A stretch of 6,717 nt of DNA from Candidatus Falkowiibacteriota bacterium (lineage in GTDB: Bacteria > Patescibacteriota > Patescibacteriia > Patescibacteriales > UBA12075): assembly GCA_003647675.1 (NCBI GenBank), contig QMNH01000054.1:1-6717 (forward strand), in the 5' to 3' direction. The notes beneath the pieces were generated by a model. It did not search any database. It was not told the origin of the DNA and saw nothing but the letters and a program-made list of their open reading frames with translations. The position numbers were made by a program, and so were the translations under genes. Of this stretch, positions 83 through 6,717 are shown piece by piece. How positions within the stretch are numbered: the stretch's first letter is position 1; every line of letters starts with the position of its first letter.

Positions 83-856
83 ATGATAAACCAAATAAAA
101 AAAGTGGCCACAAAAGCAATAAAGAATGCCGGGAAAATTGCTCTCGGTGAGTATAAGAATTTTGATCGTGCTACCATAAAGCTGAAAGCACACCAGGAAA
201 TACTTACTAAGGTTGACCTTATGTCGGAAAAAGTTATTATTGACGAAGTTAAGAAAAATTTTCCCGAGCATAGCATTTTATCCGAGGAAGCCGGCGATGA
301 TAATATTAAGTCGGAATATTTATGGATAATTGATCCGATTGACGGTACGACTAATTTTTCCATGCATAATCCGCTCTGGTGCGTATCGGTCGGTATTGCC
401 TATAGAGGAGAAATAGTTTTAGGTTTTATTTACGCGCCTTGCCAGAATGAATTATATACGGCTCAAAAAGGCCAGGGCGCTTATCTTAACGGTAAAAAAA
501 TAAAAGTGTCAAACATTTTTGAAGGAAAAATTCTAAACGCGTTTTGCAGTGCCAGGGAAATAAAGCACACAAAAAAAGCGGTTAGATATTTTTCTTACCA
601 AAAACTCCGCGGCGGGAGCTGTTATATGCTTGGCAGCGCGGCTTTGGAGCTGGGTTATGTGGCGGCCGGGCGCTTGGAATCTATGGTAATTCCCGGGGCT
701 CATCCCTGGGACGTGGCCGCGGGCGTGTTGTTAGTCAGGGAGGCTGGAGGGATAGTTTCCGATTTTAAAGGGGGCGAATGGACTTTAAGATCTGAAAATA
801 TGCTGGCCTCTAATGGGAAAGTACATAGAGAGGTACTGAAGGTGATAAATAAATAA
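83..856 (+). CDS. Inositol monophosphatase family protein
   Basis: This is a complete 257-aa protein, close to the usual length of the family, a Mg2+-dependent cytoplasmic sugar/nucleotide phosphatase fold. Three metal-site motifs are in the expected order: SEEAGD with the catalytic glutamates around residues 68-69, DPIDGTTNF at 84-92 (metal-binding D84 and D87), and HPWDVAAG at 207-214 (D210). GSAALELGYVAAGRLE at 184-199 is the typical segment before the last motif. Family members include inositol-1-phosphatase (SuhB), histidinol-phosphatase (HisN) and 3'-nucleotidase (CysQ). The sequence alone does not fix the substrate, although the motif spelling is closest to the SuhB/IMPase branch. The ATG at 83 has no recognisable SD and follows the upstream stop by 3 nt, which suggests coupling or weak SD dependence. 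No terminator hairpin with a U-run is evident after the stop. Confidence 0.93.
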   Translation: MINQIKKVATKAIKNAGKIALGEYKNFDRATIKLKAHQEILTKVDLMSEKVIIDEVKKNFPEHSILSEEAGDDNIKSEYLWIIDPIDGTTNFSMHNPLWCVSVGIAYRGEIVLGFIYAPCQNELYTAQKGQGAYLNGKKIKVSNIFEGKILNAFCSAREIKHTKKAVRYFSYQKLRGGSCYMLGSAALELGYVAAGRLESMVIPGAHPWDVAAGVLLVREAGGIVSDFKGGEWTLRSENMLASNGKVHREVLKVINK

Positions 857-1556: not shown

Positions 1557-3101
1557 ATGAAAAAAATTAATTTAATTATAATTTTTTGTATTATATTATT
1601 ATCTGCTTGCGCAAAAACAAAGCAGGAAACCAAGCCTATGTTTACAAATATAAGGAAGCCGGCCGTGGCTGGCCAATTTTATCCGGCTGACGAGCCTCAT
1701 TTAGAATTTAAAATAAATAAATATTTGAAAGAAGCGGAAGTTGAAAAAACAGACGGAGATGTTAAAGCCATAATGGTTCCTCATGCCGGATATAGTTATA
1801 GCGGACCGGTAGCGGCCTATAGCTATAAATCATTAGAGGGAAAAAAAATTAATACGGCAGTTATTATATGCAATTCCCATACAACTTATTTTAGCGGTAT
1901 AGCGCTTGACAACTCGGACGCTTGGGAAACTCCTCTGGGCCAAGTTGAAGTTGACAAGGATTTGGCTGAAAAGATCGTAAATTCAAGCGCGGCGATTAAT
2001 TATAATTCAAAGGCGCATGCCAAAGACCATACTCTTGAGGTGCAATTGCCATTTTTGCAAACTGTGGTAAAAAATAATTTTAAGATTGTACCGATTTTGT
2101 TCGGGAATATGGAGAAAGGGCCATATAAAGAGCTGGCCAAAGCTTTAAAAGAAAATTTAGGCGATAATGATATCTTGGTAATATCAACCGATATGTCGCA
2201 TTACCCCAGTTATGAAGACGCCAATAAAATTGACACCGAAACGTTAAAATTGATCAAAGCCGGTGATATTAATAAATTAGAAGAGCATGTCGCCGCGATT
2301 GAAGCCAAAGGCGTGGCCGGAGAGGAAACAGTTTTGTGCGGGATTGACGGGGTTAAGACCGCGATGGAATTATTTAATTTGGCCGGCTGGAATTCAATAG
2401 AGATTTTAAAATACGCCAATAGCGGGGACGTGGCCAGCGGCGATAAGTCAGCGGTTGTCGGTTATGGGACGATCGTATTCACTCAAAATCAAAATGCAAA
2501 ACTCAAAATTCAAAATGACAATGAAAAATTAAAAATAAATAAAACATTGAACGAATTTCAACAAAAAGAGTTATTAAAAATCGCACGTGAAACAACAGAG
2601 AATTTTGTACAGACCGGGACAAAGTTAGAATTTAAAATAGCAGACGAGAGGCTTAACCGCAAAGAAGGAGCTTTTGTTACTTTGCATCTTGATGGAGAGC
2701 TCAGGGGTTGTATCGGGCAGATCGTGCCCAGCGATAAGCCGTTGTATGAAGTGGTAAGAGACATGGCAATATCGGCCTGCTCCGAAGACAATCGTTTTAA
2801 TCCGGTTAGTAAAGGCGAGCTTAAAAGACTGGAGTATGAAGTAAGCGTTTTATCCGTACCGGAGATAATTACTAATTACAAAAACGTTGAATTGAGCAAG
2901 CACGGGGTAATAGTAAAAAAAGGTTTAAGAAGCGGAGTATTTTTGCCTCAGGTAGCGACCGAAACTGGCTGGGATTTAGAGAAGTTTTTGAGTGAGCTAT
3001 GTTCCGGTAAAGCCGGATTACCCCCTAATTGCTACAAAGATAAAGATACGCAAATTTTTGTGTTTACAGCGCAGGTTTTTGGTGAGGAGGACGTTAAGTA
3101 A
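1557..3101 (+). CDS. MEMO-AMMECR1 fusion lipoprotein (AmmeMemoRadiSam system protein B plus A)
   Basis: This 514-aa protein starts with a lipoprotein signal: KK, then a hydrophobic stretch, then the lipobox LSAC with the lipidated cysteine at residue 18. The MEMO domain spans roughly residues 31-308. It starts RKPAVAGQFYP and contains VPHAGYSYSGP (H76), CNSHTTYFSG (H108), DHTLEVQLPF (158-166), STDMSHY (210-216) and ETVLCGID (C261). H76, H108 and C261 correspond to the His/His/Cys metal site of MEMO1. A lysine/asparagine-rich linker (about 309-330) joins an AMMECR1 domain (about 331-510) with the hallmark LRGCIG at 382-387. In many prokaryotes these two domains occur with a radical SAM protein (the AmmeMemoRadiSam set), whose chemistry is not firmly known. 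No radical SAM gene lies in this window. The lipobox predicts a membrane-anchored, extracytoplasmic protein. No SD precedes the ATG, and the gene appears monocistronic. Confidence 0.92.
   Translation: MKKINLIIIFCIILLSACAKTKQETKPMFTNIRKPAVAGQFYPADEPHLEFKINKYLKEAEVEKTDGDVKAIMVPHAGYSYSGPVAAYSYKSLEGKKINTAVIICNSHTTYFSGIALDNSDAWETPLGQVEVDKDLAEKIVNSSAAINYNSKAHAKDHTLEVQLPFLQTVVKNNFKIVPILFGNMEKGPYKELAKALKENLGDNDILVISTDMSHYPSYEDANKIDTETLKLIKAGDINKLEEHVAAIEAKGVAGEETVLCGIDGVKTAMELFNLAGWNSIEILKYANSGDVASGDKSAVVGYGTIVFTQNQNAKLKIQNDNEKLKINKTLNEFQQKELLKIARETTENFVQTGTKLEFKIADERLNRKEGAFVTLHLDGELRGCIGQIVPSDKPLYEVVRDMAISACSEDNRFNPVSKGELKRLEYEVSVLSVPEIITNYKNVELSKHGVIVKKGLRSGVFLPQVATETGWDLEKFLSELCSGKAGLPPNCYKDKDTQIFVFTAQVFGEEDVK
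2481..2540 (+). repeat. Repeat-like sequence forming the interdomain linker
   Basis: Inside the MEMO/AMMECR1 gene the DNA becomes a run of short near-repeats built on CAAAATC, CAAAATG, CTCAAAATT and CAAAATGACAA, then AATTAAAAATAAAT. It encodes the N/K/Q-rich linker between the domains (about residues 309-330). The base composition differs sharply from the flanking coding DNA. AAAATTCAAAATG strings of this kind are typical of intergenic repeats in candidate-phylum genomes (from memory, not searched), so an in-frame insertion is the likely origin. Confidence 0.6.
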
Positions 3102-3104
3102 GGA

Positions 3105-3262
3105 TAAAAAGAGAAATAAGAGCAAGAAGAAAAATAAGAGAGAGAAGAGAAATAAGATAAATAAGAGCGAGAAGAATAAAAAGAGAAATATGATAGTTGA
3201 AATGAATTTTGTTCATATTTATCTTATTTTTCTTTTTAATCTTATTTGTCTTATTTTTTGTT
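3105..3262. repeat. Purine-tract / pyrimidine-tract imperfect inverted repeat
   Basis: Just after the MEMO/AMMECR1 stop, the + strand is almost pure purine with scattered T for about 85 nt. It contains degenerate tandem copies of AAATAAGAGnnAGAAG. After a short spacer it becomes pyrimidine-rich. AAATAAGATAAATA (3150-3163) is perfectly complementary to TATTTATCTTATTT (3216-3229), and the pairing extends outward with many G-U wobbles. In RNA this would be a long hairpin at the 3' end of the mRNA, possibly a stabiliser or weak terminator. The low-complexity Lys/Asn-rich frames here are not credible genes. Confidence 0.6.
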
Positions 3263-3317
3263 TTCCACAAGACTATACACAAAATTTATGCTATTATATT
3301 ATTAATGTTAATAACTT

Positions 3318-3346
3318 TTGTTTCTTTTTAACAAGGATAGTATAAC
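3318..3346 (+). promoter_or_regulatory. Sigma70-type promoter for the short RNA
   Basis: TTGTTT (3318-3323), a 17-nt spacer and TATAAC (3341-3346) give five of six matches at -10 and a fair -35. The predicted start is near 3353, followed by a short hairpin-rich segment that ends in a terminator. Confidence 0.5.
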
Positions 3347-3352
3347 CCCTCT

Positions 3353-3427
3353 TAATTGAGCGGAAATACTTCCATATAAGGAGAGGTAAAAAAAATATAG
3401 CTTTTACCAAAACTCCAACCTTTTTTT
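3353..3427 (+). ncRNA. Candidate short structured RNA (about 75 nt)
   Basis: The segment lies between the promoter at 3318-3346 and a terminator hairpin. It contains a small hairpin GGAA/TTCC (3362-3365 with 3370-3373). A larger one follows: GGTAAAA (3385-3391) pairs with TTTTACC (3402-3408), extended by GGAG (3380-3383) with CTCC (3413-3416). Seven T residues follow shortly after. No ORF of useful length is present. I do not recognise the family. It could be a small regulatory RNA or simply a tandem terminator with a chance promoter. Confidence 0.4.
3380..3427 (+). terminator. Intrinsic terminator of the short RNA
   Basis: GGAG and GGTAAAA pair with TTTTACC and CTCC around an internal loop. 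The stem is followed, after AACC, by T7 at 3421-3427. The stem is A/U-rich, so efficiency is uncertain. A second terminator lies immediately downstream. Confidence 0.5.
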
Positions 3428-3429
3428 AC

Positions 3430-3464
3430 GCCCCAAAGTTTATTCTGCGGGGCTTTATTTTTTT
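3430..3464 (+). terminator. Second tandem intrinsic terminator
   Basis: GCCCC (3430-3434) pairs with GGGGC (3449-3453) around a 14-nt loop. TTTATTTTTTT follows at 3454-3464. This cleanly insulates the downstream double promoter from transcription coming from the left. Confidence 0.7.
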
Positions 3465-3471
3465 AGTGGGA

Positions 3472-3499
3472 TTGACAAATTATTAGGAATATGTAATAT
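3472..3499 (+). promoter_or_regulatory. Upstream member of a tandem promoter pair
   Basis: A perfect -35 TTGACA (3472-3477) is followed by a 16-nt spacer and TAATAT (3494-3499), a 4/6 match at -10. The -35 region ATTGACAAAT recurs 42 nt downstream in the second promoter. Confidence 0.55.
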
Positions 3500-3513
3500 T
3501 AATAAATTGGTCA

Positions 3514-3541
3514 TTGACAAATAACTAAAATTAGCTATAAT
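3514..3541 (+). promoter_or_regulatory. Strong consensus sigma70 promoter
   Basis: TTGACA (3514-3519), a 16-nt spacer and TATAAT (3536-3541) are both perfect consensus hexamers. The transcript should start near 3548-3549. It is the best promoter in the window and drives the long GC-enriched RNA region rather than a long ORF. Confidence 0.8.
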
Positions 3542-3589
3542 AAAAATATATTTTAGCGCAATTTATTATAAAAATGCGTTAACTTAGAA

Positions 3590-3619
3590 AGTCGGAGCGG
3601 TTCCGACTACAGCTTTTTT
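3590..3619 (+). terminator. Possible promoter-proximal attenuator hairpin
   Basis: AGTCGGA (3590-3596) pairs with TCCGACT (3602-3608) around a 5-nt loop. ACAGC and then six T follow (3614-3619). The five-base gap between stem and T-run makes it a weak terminator, or a pause or attenuator in the leader of the long transcript. Confidence 0.35.
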
Positions 3620-3648
3620 ACAATTTTTTAATCAAAAGGAGGTTGCTT

Positions 3649-3771
3649 ATGGATGTGTCTAAGGGAAATACTTCGAGAACCGTTATGTCACTGAAAGTCG
3701 ACCTGTTGATCTGCCAAATTGGCACCGGCAATTCTGAAAATTTGGCCATTTACGCCGGCCTGATCCTTTAG
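3649..3771 (+). CDS. Small ORF, 40 aa, strong Shine-Dalgarno
   Basis: AGGAGG at 3637-3642 lies 6 nt before the ATG, the strongest start signal in the window. The peptide begins MDVSKGNTSRTV and ends NLAIYAGLIL before a TAG at 3769-3771. The second half is mildly hydrophobic and there is one cysteine (residue 22). I do not recognise a family. The same frame stays open after the TAG to the stop at 4036-4038, but that extension is very basic and not protein-like. The ORF overlaps several predicted RNA pairings, so translation would compete with folding. It is a genuine small protein, a leader peptide or chance; the start site is good but the protein evidence is thin. Confidence 0.4.
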   Translation: MDVSKGNTSRTVMSLKVDLLICQIGTGNSENLAIYAGLIL

Positions 3772-3802
3772 TCGAAAACGGATGCAAAAAAGCGGAGGAA
3801 AG

Positions 3803-3877
3803 ATGTTAAATACATTCAGAATCCCACCGCAACCGCAGAGCCTGACCTTTGTATGGAGCGGCGTGTGTGTAAGGTAA
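3803..3877 (+). CDS. Small ORF, 24 aa, with Shine-Dalgarno
   Basis: GGAGG at 3794-3798 lies 4 nt before the ATG. The peptide starts MLNTFRIPPQPQ, ends FVWSGVCVR and stops at TAA 3875-3877. It begins 31 nt after the 40-aa ORF ends, in a different frame, as in a small bicistronic arrangement. No family is recognisable. The credibility comes only from the SD. Confidence 0.25.
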   Translation: MLNTFRIPPQPQSLTFVWSGVCVR

Positions 3878-4213
3878 AGGTTTTCGGATTATTCGGGGAT
3901 TTAAAACTCTGCCCATTTTTTAGAAATAATACCCGGCATGAGGAGCCAAGATCAGGCCAATACCCCGGCCGACGCAAGCCTTTTTTAGAAGGCCGCCCGA
4001 GAAACCCGGGTAGGTTTTGGCGGTCAAACAAAAGGTAGCGATTGTCACTTGCCGTGTCTTATCCCCGCCAGTAATGGGAATTTAAGAAGGCACGACGATA
4101 TCGGTGCGCAATTATTCGAACGAGAATTATGCCACCAGGGACCGCTGACAGCCAAGACTCCAAGAAGGCGAGCCACAGGGTCCTACGAAAGGACGCCGCT
4201 ATCTTTTACTAAA

Positions 4214-4245
4214 AAGGGGCGAAGAATCGCTTCGCCCCTTATTAT
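4214..4245 (+). terminator. Strong terminator of the long RNA
   Basis: AAGGGGCGAAG (4214-4224) pairs perfectly with CTTCGCCCCTT (4230-4240) around the loop AATCG. The T-run is short and broken (TTATTAT). The 11-bp stem is the most stable local hairpin in the window and fits the 3' end of the long transcript. Confidence 0.7.
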
Positions 4246-4339
4246 AACCTTCGGCTACATGAAAGGAGATTGTCCCAAATAATTTTTTTCAGATGAATAA
4301 TCAAAAAAATTGTAGTATCGTCATATGGAAAAATTAGAC

Positions 4340-4532
4340 TAGGTTTCCCGAACCTGAATACGGGAAAGTAAGCAGGTTCAACAACCTGCCGATAAAAAGG
4401 CCGAACTAATGTAAGGCCACTAAAAACCGGGCGACCATCTTAAAACGTGATGAATCGCTCAGGCGAAAACAATAAAAAGATAAAGACCCTTCTGCGAAGA
4501 GAAATTTCTTCCAAAGGGTCTTTTAAATTTTT
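4340..4532 (+). ncRNA. Candidate bistable structured RNA with terminator
   Basis: TTTCCCG (4344-4350) and CGGGAAA (4361-4367) form hairpin 1. GCAGGTT (4372-4378) and AACCTGC (4383-4389) form hairpin 2. The loop of hairpin 1 carries AACCTG (4351-4356), complementary to CAGGTT (4373-4378) in hairpin 2, so a pseudoknot and hairpin 2 exclude each other. GGT..CCCG at 4342-4350 can also pair with CGGG..ACC further 3'. Then come a conserved-looking CTAATGTAAGGCC (4406-4418), a small TCGC/GCGA hairpin near 4454-4465, and a strong terminator. This layout resembles a riboswitch or a structured sRNA, but no gene follows directly and the promoter is unclear. Family unknown. Confidence 0.45.
4482..4532 (+). 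terminator. Intrinsic terminator
   Basis: AAAGACCCTT (4482-4491) pairs perfectly with AAGGGTCTTT (4514-4523), with an inner GAAGA/TCTTC stem. TTTTAAATTTTTA follows from 4521. It closes the structured RNA on its 3' side. Confidence 0.75.
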
Positions 4533-4882: not shown

Positions 4883-5296
4883 ATGAAAAAGTATTTGCTT
4901 CGATCAGCAGCAGTACTCATTGCATTAACGGTGACTTTTATTTGTTTTAGCCCGACATTTATCGCCGCGGCCGACAATAGCGATCAGACAACGGTACAGA
5001 CGACGGCCCTTCTGAAGATGACTTCAAGCCCGGAGGTGCTTGTTAAAAGCATTGAAATTGTTTTTGAGGAATTTAATTCCGCTGTTTTAACAAACTGCCT
5101 TGTTGGCGAAGAGATCACTGATGATGCCTTCTGCGTTAGGCATAGTGAAAGTATGGCAATAATCGGAACCGTGGAAAAGGAGGCAAGTGGCGGCATATTT
5201 GCCTATTTGATACGATATGACGATAATGCCATTTCCACTTCGGGCGAACAATTTTACACCTTTATCTCTACAGATGGCCTTTGTCTTCGCGTCTAA
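4883..5296 (+). CDS. Small predicted secreted protein, unknown function
   Basis: This 137-aa protein has a textbook Sec signal peptide: MKKYLLR, a hydrophobic core to about residue 27, and an AAA site near 28-30 followed by DNSDQ. There is no lipobox, so the mature ~107-residue protein should be exported free. After a Thr/Ser-rich start it has a mixed alpha/beta-looking body with cysteines near residues 72, 84 and 134, enough for one disulfide. The end is GEQFYTFISTDGLCLRV. I recognise no domain. GAGG at 4873-4876 lies 6 nt before the ATG. The gene has its own promoter, a structured leader and its own terminator, so it is a regulated single-gene unit. Confidence 0.75.
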   Translation: MKKYLLRSAAVLIALTVTFICFSPTFIAAADNSDQTTVQTTALLKMTSSPEVLVKSIEIVFEEFNSAVLTNCLVGEEITDDAFCVRHSESMAIIGTVEKEASGGIFAYLIRYDDNAISTSGEQFYTFISTDGLCLRV

Positions 5297-5383: not shown

Positions 5384-5510
5384 GTCATCCTGAGCCGTAG
5401 GCGAAGGATCCCGATGCTTATATCTAGTACGTTTTTATTATGTATTATTTCCACATTTATTTTTCTTATCCTCGGGATTCTTCACTACGCTACGCTTCGT
5501 TCAGAATGAC
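5384..5510. repeat. GTCAT-type inverted-repeat element, copy 3
   Basis: The left arm GTCATCCTGAGCC...GGATCCCGA (5384-5414) is the imperfect reverse complement of the right arm TCGGGATTC...TTCAGAATGAC (5472-5510). The arms are separated by about 57 AT-rich bases. The right arm has a three-step CTACG/CTTCG reiteration. The GTCATYCTGA..GAAGGATC signature is a widespread intergenic repeat type. It sits between two convergent genes and differs in sequence from copies 1 and 2. Confidence 0.75.
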
Positions 5511-5520
5511 AGTTTATTTT

Positions 5521-6717
5521 TTATATTTTTAATATTTTCTTCAGATATTGTCCGGTATAACTTTTTTTAACCAGAGCAACTTCTTTTGGCGTACCTTGGG
5601 CGATTATTTCCCCGCCCTTGTCCCCGCCTTCCGGACCCAAGTCTATTATCCAATCAACCGATTTTATTACATCCAGATTGTGTTCTATTATCAGGACCGT
5701 ATTACCTTTGTCAGCCAGCTGGTTTAAAACTTTTAAGAGGCGCTTAATATCGTCAAAATGCAGACCGGTGGTCGGTTCGTCCAGGATATAAAGAGTTTTG
5801 CCGGTTGCCCGGCGGGAAAGCTCGGTAGCCAATTTTACCCTTTGGGCTTCGCCGCCGGACAGGGTAGTGGCGCTTTGACCTAGCTTAATATATCCCAGAC
5901 CAACTTCTCTAAGCGTAGCTAGTTTATTCTCTATGGCCGGAATATTTTTAAAAAAAGCATGAGCCTCTTCTATGGTCATTTTTAAAACATCGGAAATATT
6001 TTTATCCTTATAATATATTTCCAAAGCTTCTTTATTGTAGCGATGGCCGTGGCAGACTTCGCATTCAACGTAAACGTCGGGCAAGAATTGCATTTCTATT
6101 TTATTAACGCCATCCCCCGAGCACGCCTCGCAGCGTCCGCCCACCACATTGAACGAAAAACGACCCGGCCGATAGCCTTTTATTTTTGCTTCCGGCAAAG
6201 AGGCGAACAGTTCGCGTATTGGCGTAAAAGCGCCGGTATAGGTTGCCGGATTGGAGCGGGGCGTGCGCCCGATTGGCGATTGGTTAATGTCAATTACTTT
6301 GTCAAGGTATTTAAGGCCCTCTATGCTTTCGTGGGCGCCGGGTTCGGCTTTGGCGCGGTGGAATTTTTTACTTAAGGCTTTGGCCAGAATATCGCTCATT
6401 AAAGTGGATTTGCCGGAGCCGGATACGCCGGTAATAGCAATAAATTTTCCCAAAGGAAAACTAACGTCAATGTTTTTAAGATTATGTTCCGAGGCTTTAA
6501 TGATTTTTATTTTAGCGCCGTTTCCTTTCCGGTAATGGTTTGGAATTTTTACGGATTCTTTGCCCGACAGGTACTGGCCGGTTAAGGATTTAGCGTCTTT
6601 TTTAATTTGCGCCGGAGTTCCTTCGGATACGATTTCGCCTCCATGCTCGCCGGCACCAGGGCCGATATCTATTATCCAATCGGCCGAAATCATAGTTTCT
6701 TCATCATGTTCAACCAC
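5521..6717 (-). CDS. uvrA: UvrA, excinuclease ABC subunit A, C-terminal part (partial)
   Basis: The last 398 residues of UvrA, the ATPase that finds bulky DNA lesions with UvrB and loads it in nucleotide excision repair. The visible part opens with [22 protein letters not shown], the end of the first ATPase module. The second ABC module follows: Walker [10 protein letters not shown] (97-105), the zinc finger CEAC...CEVC (C196, C199, C219, C222), signature LSGGEAQR (286-293), Walker [13 protein letters not shown] (309-320) and the EH switch (345-346). All key residues are intact, so the gene looks functional. Full-length UvrA is about 940 aa, so the N-terminal half lies beyond the right edge. 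The first codon seen is an internal GTG (Val), not a start. No terminator of its own is clear on the - strand. Confidence 0.97.

Follow-up and report, generated by a model that had tools for sequence, protein, structure and literature searches.

The window analysed here (6,717 nt) is a complete contig, C54, of a Patescibacteria assembly of 1.17 Mb and 88.8% completeness, referred to below as G000. It encodes an inositol monophosphatase, a MEMO-AMMECR1 fusion, an orphan protein that returned its own copy only in the protein search and had no Pfam domain, and the C-terminal part of a protein that we take from its sequence to be the DNA-repair protein UvrA (Pfam itself gave only ABC_tran). Between the AMMECR1 fusion and the orphan gene lies a GC-rich unit that is preceded by promoter sequences and ends in a hairpin (Table 1). 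Other elements were seen around these features. Imperfect inverted repeats of the REP or MITE type were noticed, by eye only, in intergenic DNA at 960-1150, 1290-1490, and 5385-5510, and a small GC-poor element 5' of the first promoter site (3345-3465) ended in a hairpin and T run (folding z -2.21; 2 of 200 shuffles equally good). A second RNA-like element follows the unit immediately on its 3' side (4320-4530); its 4320-4450 segment had a fold that none of 200 shuffles equaled (z -3.35), its 4385-4525 segment contained a strong terminal hairpin with a T tract, and a search of 362 class genomes returned its own copy plus four short matches.

Table 1. Coordinates of genes and predicted features in the window
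Feature	Position	Strand	Remarks
Inositol monophosphatase	83-856		
MEMO-AMMECR1 fusion	1557-3101		
Upstream promoter-like site P1	3472-3499	+	TTGACA-N16-TAATAT; 10/12 consensus positions
Promoter P2	3514-3541	+	TTGACA-N16-TATAAT; 12/12 consensus; starts 42 bp after P1
Body of predicted RNA	3549-4240	+	GC-rich, ORF-less; GC 46%; folding z -2.45; no frame longer than expected by chance
Two predicted 5' hairpins	3553-3582, 3590-3608	+	Pair probabilities 0.85 and 0.82
Predicted hairpin pairing the first Shine-Dalgarno (SD) sequence (3635-3643)	3610-3645	+	3610-3619/3636-3645; mean probability 0.67
Mini-ORF 1	3649-3771	+	40 aa; SD AAAGGAGGT
Mini-ORF 2	3803-3877	+	24 aa; SD GGAGG
3' domain	4030-4207	+	Closed by predicted long-range helix 4030-4040/4197-4207; 11 pairs, mean probability 0.93
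Terminal hairpin, probably terminator	4214-4240	+	Pairing prediction; weak T tract
Orphan protein	4883-5296		137 aa; signal-like start
UvrA (presumed), C-terminal part	5521-6717	-	Pfam match is ABC_tran

A preliminary description of this DNA had proposed a perfect promoter in tandem with a second one, raised GC content, and no credible long ORF, and all of these were borne out. The sequence TTGACA-N16-TATAAT occurred once within the window and in none of 200 shuffles, and the second promoter-like site was located exactly 42 bp upstream of it. In 150-nt windows the GC content was 44-55% across 3675-4274, compared with 20-31% across 3150-3674 and 17-44% downstream of the unit, where the 44% value belonged to the second RNA-like element. 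The longest plus-strand stretch free of stop codons was 88 codons, a length reached by 23% of shuffles, and therefore no credible long ORF is present. For folding statistics the unit was cut as 694 nt, and none of 60 shuffles folded equally well; a second run gave z -2.51, with 1 of 20 shuffles equally good. This excess was the weakest among the nine units described below.

Structural claims fared less evenly. The terminal hairpin, earlier described as an 11-bp terminator, is real, with 9 pairs at 4216-4238 (mean pair probability 1.00) and 11 when A-U pairs are included (4214-4240); it has only a weak T tract (TTATTAT), however, and was absent from the list of the terminator scan. The same scan did list the second 5' hairpin, behind which the sequence is rich in T. 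Numerous complementarities, among them crossing stems, had also been described, and these were not confirmed: for minimum stem lengths of 8, 9, and 10 pairs the counts were 16, 10, and 1, compared with 11.0, 6.4, and 1.6 in 40 shuffles, and crossing combinations of such stems numbered 15, 6, and 0, compared with 16.2, 5.8, and 0.4. Crossing stems, being no more frequent than in shuffles, were rejected as a feature of the unit.

No known RNA family accounted for the unit. Rfam 15 searched at E values up to 1 gave two chance matches in the window, both outside the unit, and seven matches at the loci of seven relatives (E up to 0.5), all below the gathering score. As stated earlier from inspection, the unit does not show the cores of tmRNA, RNase P RNA, or SRP RNA: Rfam was negative in the window for all three, as it was for 6S RNA, and ARAGORN detected neither tmRNA (RF00023) nor any tRNA there, with the method control recovering the tmRNA in the sampled G003 DNA. 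A partial RNase P RNA match (RF00010, 102 bits) lay on another G000 contig, near the contig end; tmRNA did not exceed the cutoff in this incomplete assembly. Four relatives that carry a unit (G002, G003, G004, and G015) have both RNase P RNA and tmRNA located elsewhere. Within the accessible portions of the literature, no comparable RNA was described for Patescibacteria.

The control for GC-rich gaps used 389,514 bases from G017, G004, G002, G003, and G035 and considered gaps of at least 450 nt that lacked an ORF of 130 codons. Thirty-seven were found, and all three with a GC content of at least 43% contained either tmRNA (one gap) or two tRNAs each (two gaps); a GC-rich ORF-less gap thus marks stable RNA genes in the sampled genomes, and by this criterion the window unit looks like a stable RNA gene.

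Collecting homologues by blastn, as had been suggested, yielded no convincing homologue of the window unit among 59 relatives (own copy plus one 34-nt match) or 380 class genomes. In the latter set, beyond the unit's own copy, 22 genomes gave matches of only about 20-47 nt (E 3.6e-4 to 0.008), a number exceeding that predicted by the nominal E values; some of these were compared further and none resembled a homologue. Phage and plasmid records contained no match to the unit, and exact 20-21-mers of the window were found neither in viral contigs nor in genome contigs. The lack of a convincing homologue for the body would suit a decayed gene or a functionless foreign orphan sequence, which we nevertheless consider most improbable given that a perfect promoter and a terminal hairpin are retained, that eight relatives show the same arrangement, and that folding and SD-led start codons are in excess.

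These relatives were recognized by gene order. AMMECR1 and uvrA are convergent on one contig in twelve genomes. A uvrA match was found in 104 of 111 genomes of the order, and 71 regions 3' of the gene (168,448 bases) were examined, using the flank of the best copy where a genome had two. Nine of the 71 flanks contained a GC-rich ORF-less unit of 475-976 nt directed toward the 3' end of uvrA: G000, G002, G003, and G004 (family f1), G015 (f5), G017, G035, and G045 (f7), and G048 (f15). For G017, blastn against 110 loci gave an alignment over the promoter pair (79 bp, 73%, E 1.1e-4), which is followed by the GC-rich ORF-less unit and then a terminal hairpin; the G048 unit was recognized solely through the promoter-pair scan. 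All nine folded better than each of 60 dinucleotide shuffles, with z values of -2.45 (G000), -5.10 (G017), -5.24 (G035), -3.93 (G045), -5.81 (G004), -9.90 (G003), -3.96 (G002), -9.55 (G015), and -3.67 (G048). In none did a long plus-strand frame exceed chance (14% to 84% of shuffles equaled the observed length). We hold it quite probable that the unit is an RNA gene, and this synteny is the decisive evidence.

Not all relatives carry a unit at this place. The gap between AMMECR1 and uvrA was 84 nt in G005 and 9 nt in G024, and no unit was seen in the gap of G016, G028, or G034, which have the gene pair. The ORF-based gap survey was insensitive, with chance frames hiding known units such as those of G000, G002, and G003 and some flanks ending at contig ends, so units elsewhere may have been missed. 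Additional genes between AMMECR1 and uvrA, two in G003 and a small one in G035, were seen by eye alongside the unit, and the spot therefore looks like a variable island. A different RNA-like unit was observed beside uvrA on the opposite strand in family f8 (G052, G425, and G426). Its 5' part is conserved (76-84% over about 100-124 nt), and in G052 it contains the SD-led mini-ORFs MPYINYPP and MYYWTRPP, both ending in Pro-Pro-stop, which we take to be a ribosome-stalling pattern.

In another reading the transcript would regulate its neighbor, converging on uvrA and acting as antisense RNA or by transcriptional interference. All nine units point at the 3' end of uvrA, yet the window unit stops ~1.28 kb before the gene, with another gene in between, the units terminate in hairpins short of uvrA, and antisense action leaves the folding excess unexplained. 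We regard such regulation as very unlikely.

The spacing of the two promoter sites recurred among the units. Because 42 bp corresponds to four helical turns, we infer that P1 and P2 face the same side of the DNA. Among the eight units found first, six had TTGA 41-43 bp after the first TTGACA (P = 3.1e-8 under independence, a value to be read with the three f7 genomes representing one genus and the step having first been spotted in G000 and G017; of the remaining four units, 2 fit). Over all nine, the pair TTGACA-N35..37-TTGA was kept in seven, with G004 and G015 lacking the 42-bp step. Scanning the 71 flanks for this pair gave nine matches on the RNA strand, of which seven lay within units and two within apparent coding sequence (G013 and G438), and a single match on the other strand (G001).

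Conservation of the body was far narrower, as the sequences of most units hardly matched and clear alignment was confined to one genus, f7. The three f7 units shared a 3' domain, aligned by blastn in pieces of 82-293 nt at 70-77%, with a mean column identity of 82% over a 170-nt core and 78% over about 250 nt. In a check of these three sequences of one genus for covariation, 2 of 36 base pairs were changed on both sides and several were broken in one sequence. Against the other units, the window body never aligned better than expected from shuffles (highest z 1.6, for G004), and between families the one pair above the z threshold of 2 was G017-G002 (z 3.7). The units of G000, G017, and G035 have the 10-mer CACGACGATA in common, at distances of 148, 184, and 200 nt, respectively, from their 3' ends, which is no more than suggestive.

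Searches outward from individual units agreed with this narrow range. When the f7 3' domain was written as a gapped pattern, five loci in genome contigs matched it, namely G017, G035, and three actinobacterial contigs, the last being taken as chance. The covariance model R1, built from the f7 core, gave strong matches only to f7 across 27 sources, where a single further match was weak (14.5 bits). With filters off it produced no convincing match in the other units, and in the 380 class genomes it gave ten weak matches, the best at 22.5 bits. No f7 match appeared in that set, so the f7 genomes probably lie outside it. The G004 unit, searched against 111 genomes, matched itself and one position inside an apparent coding gene.

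Two SD-led short ORFs lie within the putative transcript of the window; the preliminary description had allowed for small peptides but named neither frame. The peptide of mini-ORF 1 was found by protein search only as its own copy, identical, from an 8,875-nt contig. Across the first eight units GGAGG-N4..10-ATG occurred 10 times on the RNA strand (two each in G000, G035, and G004; one each in G017, G045, G003, and G002; none in G015) and never on the other strand, compared with a mean of 0.54 and a maximum of 4 in 1000 shuffles (0/1000 reached 10). The G048 unit had none, so that SD-led starts were present in seven of nine units and missing from G015 and G048. Of the 37 control gaps, 7 likewise contained SD-led ATGs, at 11 sites counted over both strands. 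Some of them resemble small genes, and the motif alone is thus not specific. Hairpins over the first SD or its neighborhood were predicted in G035 (0.86), G004 (0.83), and G015 (0.87) as well.

These starts, well above chance, bear on whether the unit is simply a messenger for fast-evolving small peptides, with the mini-ORFs as its function and the structured remainder as a stable 3' untranslated region. Changes between mini-ORFs offer it some support: those of G017 and G045 share the start MARA..NRK and differ mostly at third positions (by eye), and G004 has three mini-ORFs by a looser rule, two of them near-copies with four different codons, three of these synonymous (a pattern search with the G004 mini-ORFs matched G004 alone). 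The first mini-ORF of G035, however, has 5 codons only, a GGAGG-led ATG is missing from two of the nine units, and the part that blastn can align within one genus is the 3' domain; we consider a pure peptide messenger rather unlikely. The opposite view, a purely noncoding stable RNA in which the SD-like sites either have a structural part or bind ribosomes but yield no functional peptide, has precedents in OLE, ROOL, and GOLLD, as far as they are covered in the available part of PMC12286853, and the body does make up most of the unit. Starts at translational spacing after an SD, on the RNA strand only, and the codon-like changes in both comparisons (G017/G045 and the G004 near-copies) argue against it, and we judge it distinctly unlikely.

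The reading we favor, held at about even confidence, is a large RNA, stable and structured, with two roles, one as RNA and one through one or two mini-ORFs; that mini-ORFs and body both matter seems to us about equally open to either answer. In the proposed mechanism, two promoters 42 bp apart would drive strong transcription, ribosomes would load on one or two mini-ORFs near the 5' end, the hairpin over the first SD would make this loading conditional, and the structured body would subsequently function at the RNA level, probably in trans. Transcription, stability, translation, and a shared ancestry of the units from different families are all inferred steps here. The new large or dual-function RNA first suggested for this locus is favored by the units in eight relatives, the folding excess in nine of nine, the promoter pair in seven of nine, and SD-led starts far above chance, although the window body aligned with none of the others beyond shuffles. 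On this account the body evolves so rapidly that, between families, only the location, the paired promoters, the arrangement of the mini-ORFs, and the hairpin at the end can still be recognized.

RNAIII/hld and SgrS/SgrT are dual-function regulatory RNAs, and our bet would be on a regulatory RNA working like RNAIII or SgrS. They share with the predicted unit an SD-led short frame (or frames) near the 5' end, a longer structured part, and a terminator hairpin. So does VcdRP/VcdP, another dual-function regulatory RNA in the accessible text of PMC8672173. The units differ in having no known sequence relation to these RNAs, up to three mini-ORFs, and a body hardly conserved between families; a putative dual-function mode of action, assigned to no named family, appears to us an even call. 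OLE, ROOL, and GOLLD, in the available part of PMC12286853, are large structured bacterial RNAs of roughly 600-900 nt with their own transcription unit, resembling the unit in these respects, but the latter has no Rfam match to any family. The same part assigns ROOL and GOLLD to phages or prophages, often in the vicinity of tRNA islands, in contrast to this tRNA-free window, and these three classes keep recognizable sequence and structure across relatives, whereas the units are hardly alignable between families. The abundant 520-nt RNA of Lactobacillus salivarius (PMC5643018, cited as ROOL in PMC12286853; both available in part) is likewise long, stable, and narrowly distributed, stability being predicted for the unit; it was measured as abundant and is alignable across its species, whereas the unit is a prediction from sequence. 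Like tmRNA, the unit would be a stable structured RNA containing a short reading frame, but without the tRNA-like ends (Rfam and ARAGORN).

In a bolder and less probable reading, Patescibacteria could have a hypervariable RNA gene of a new class, in which the place, an in-phase promoter pair, SD-gated mini-ORFs, and a terminal hairpin are inherited and a structured body of 500-1000 nt is rewritten between genera. What hypervariable orphan proteins are among proteins, such genes would be among RNAs, and they might be adjusted to the host or the parasites of each bacterium. Structured RNAs are usually detected by conservation; the units here were unlinked by sequence search and found only via synteny and promoter layout. 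If this is true, large RNAs of candidate phyla would be undercounted, small-genome bacteria would retain an RNA gene that evolves fast and carries mini-ORFs on which ribosomes load, and how RNA genes evolve when only the frame is inherited would become testable.
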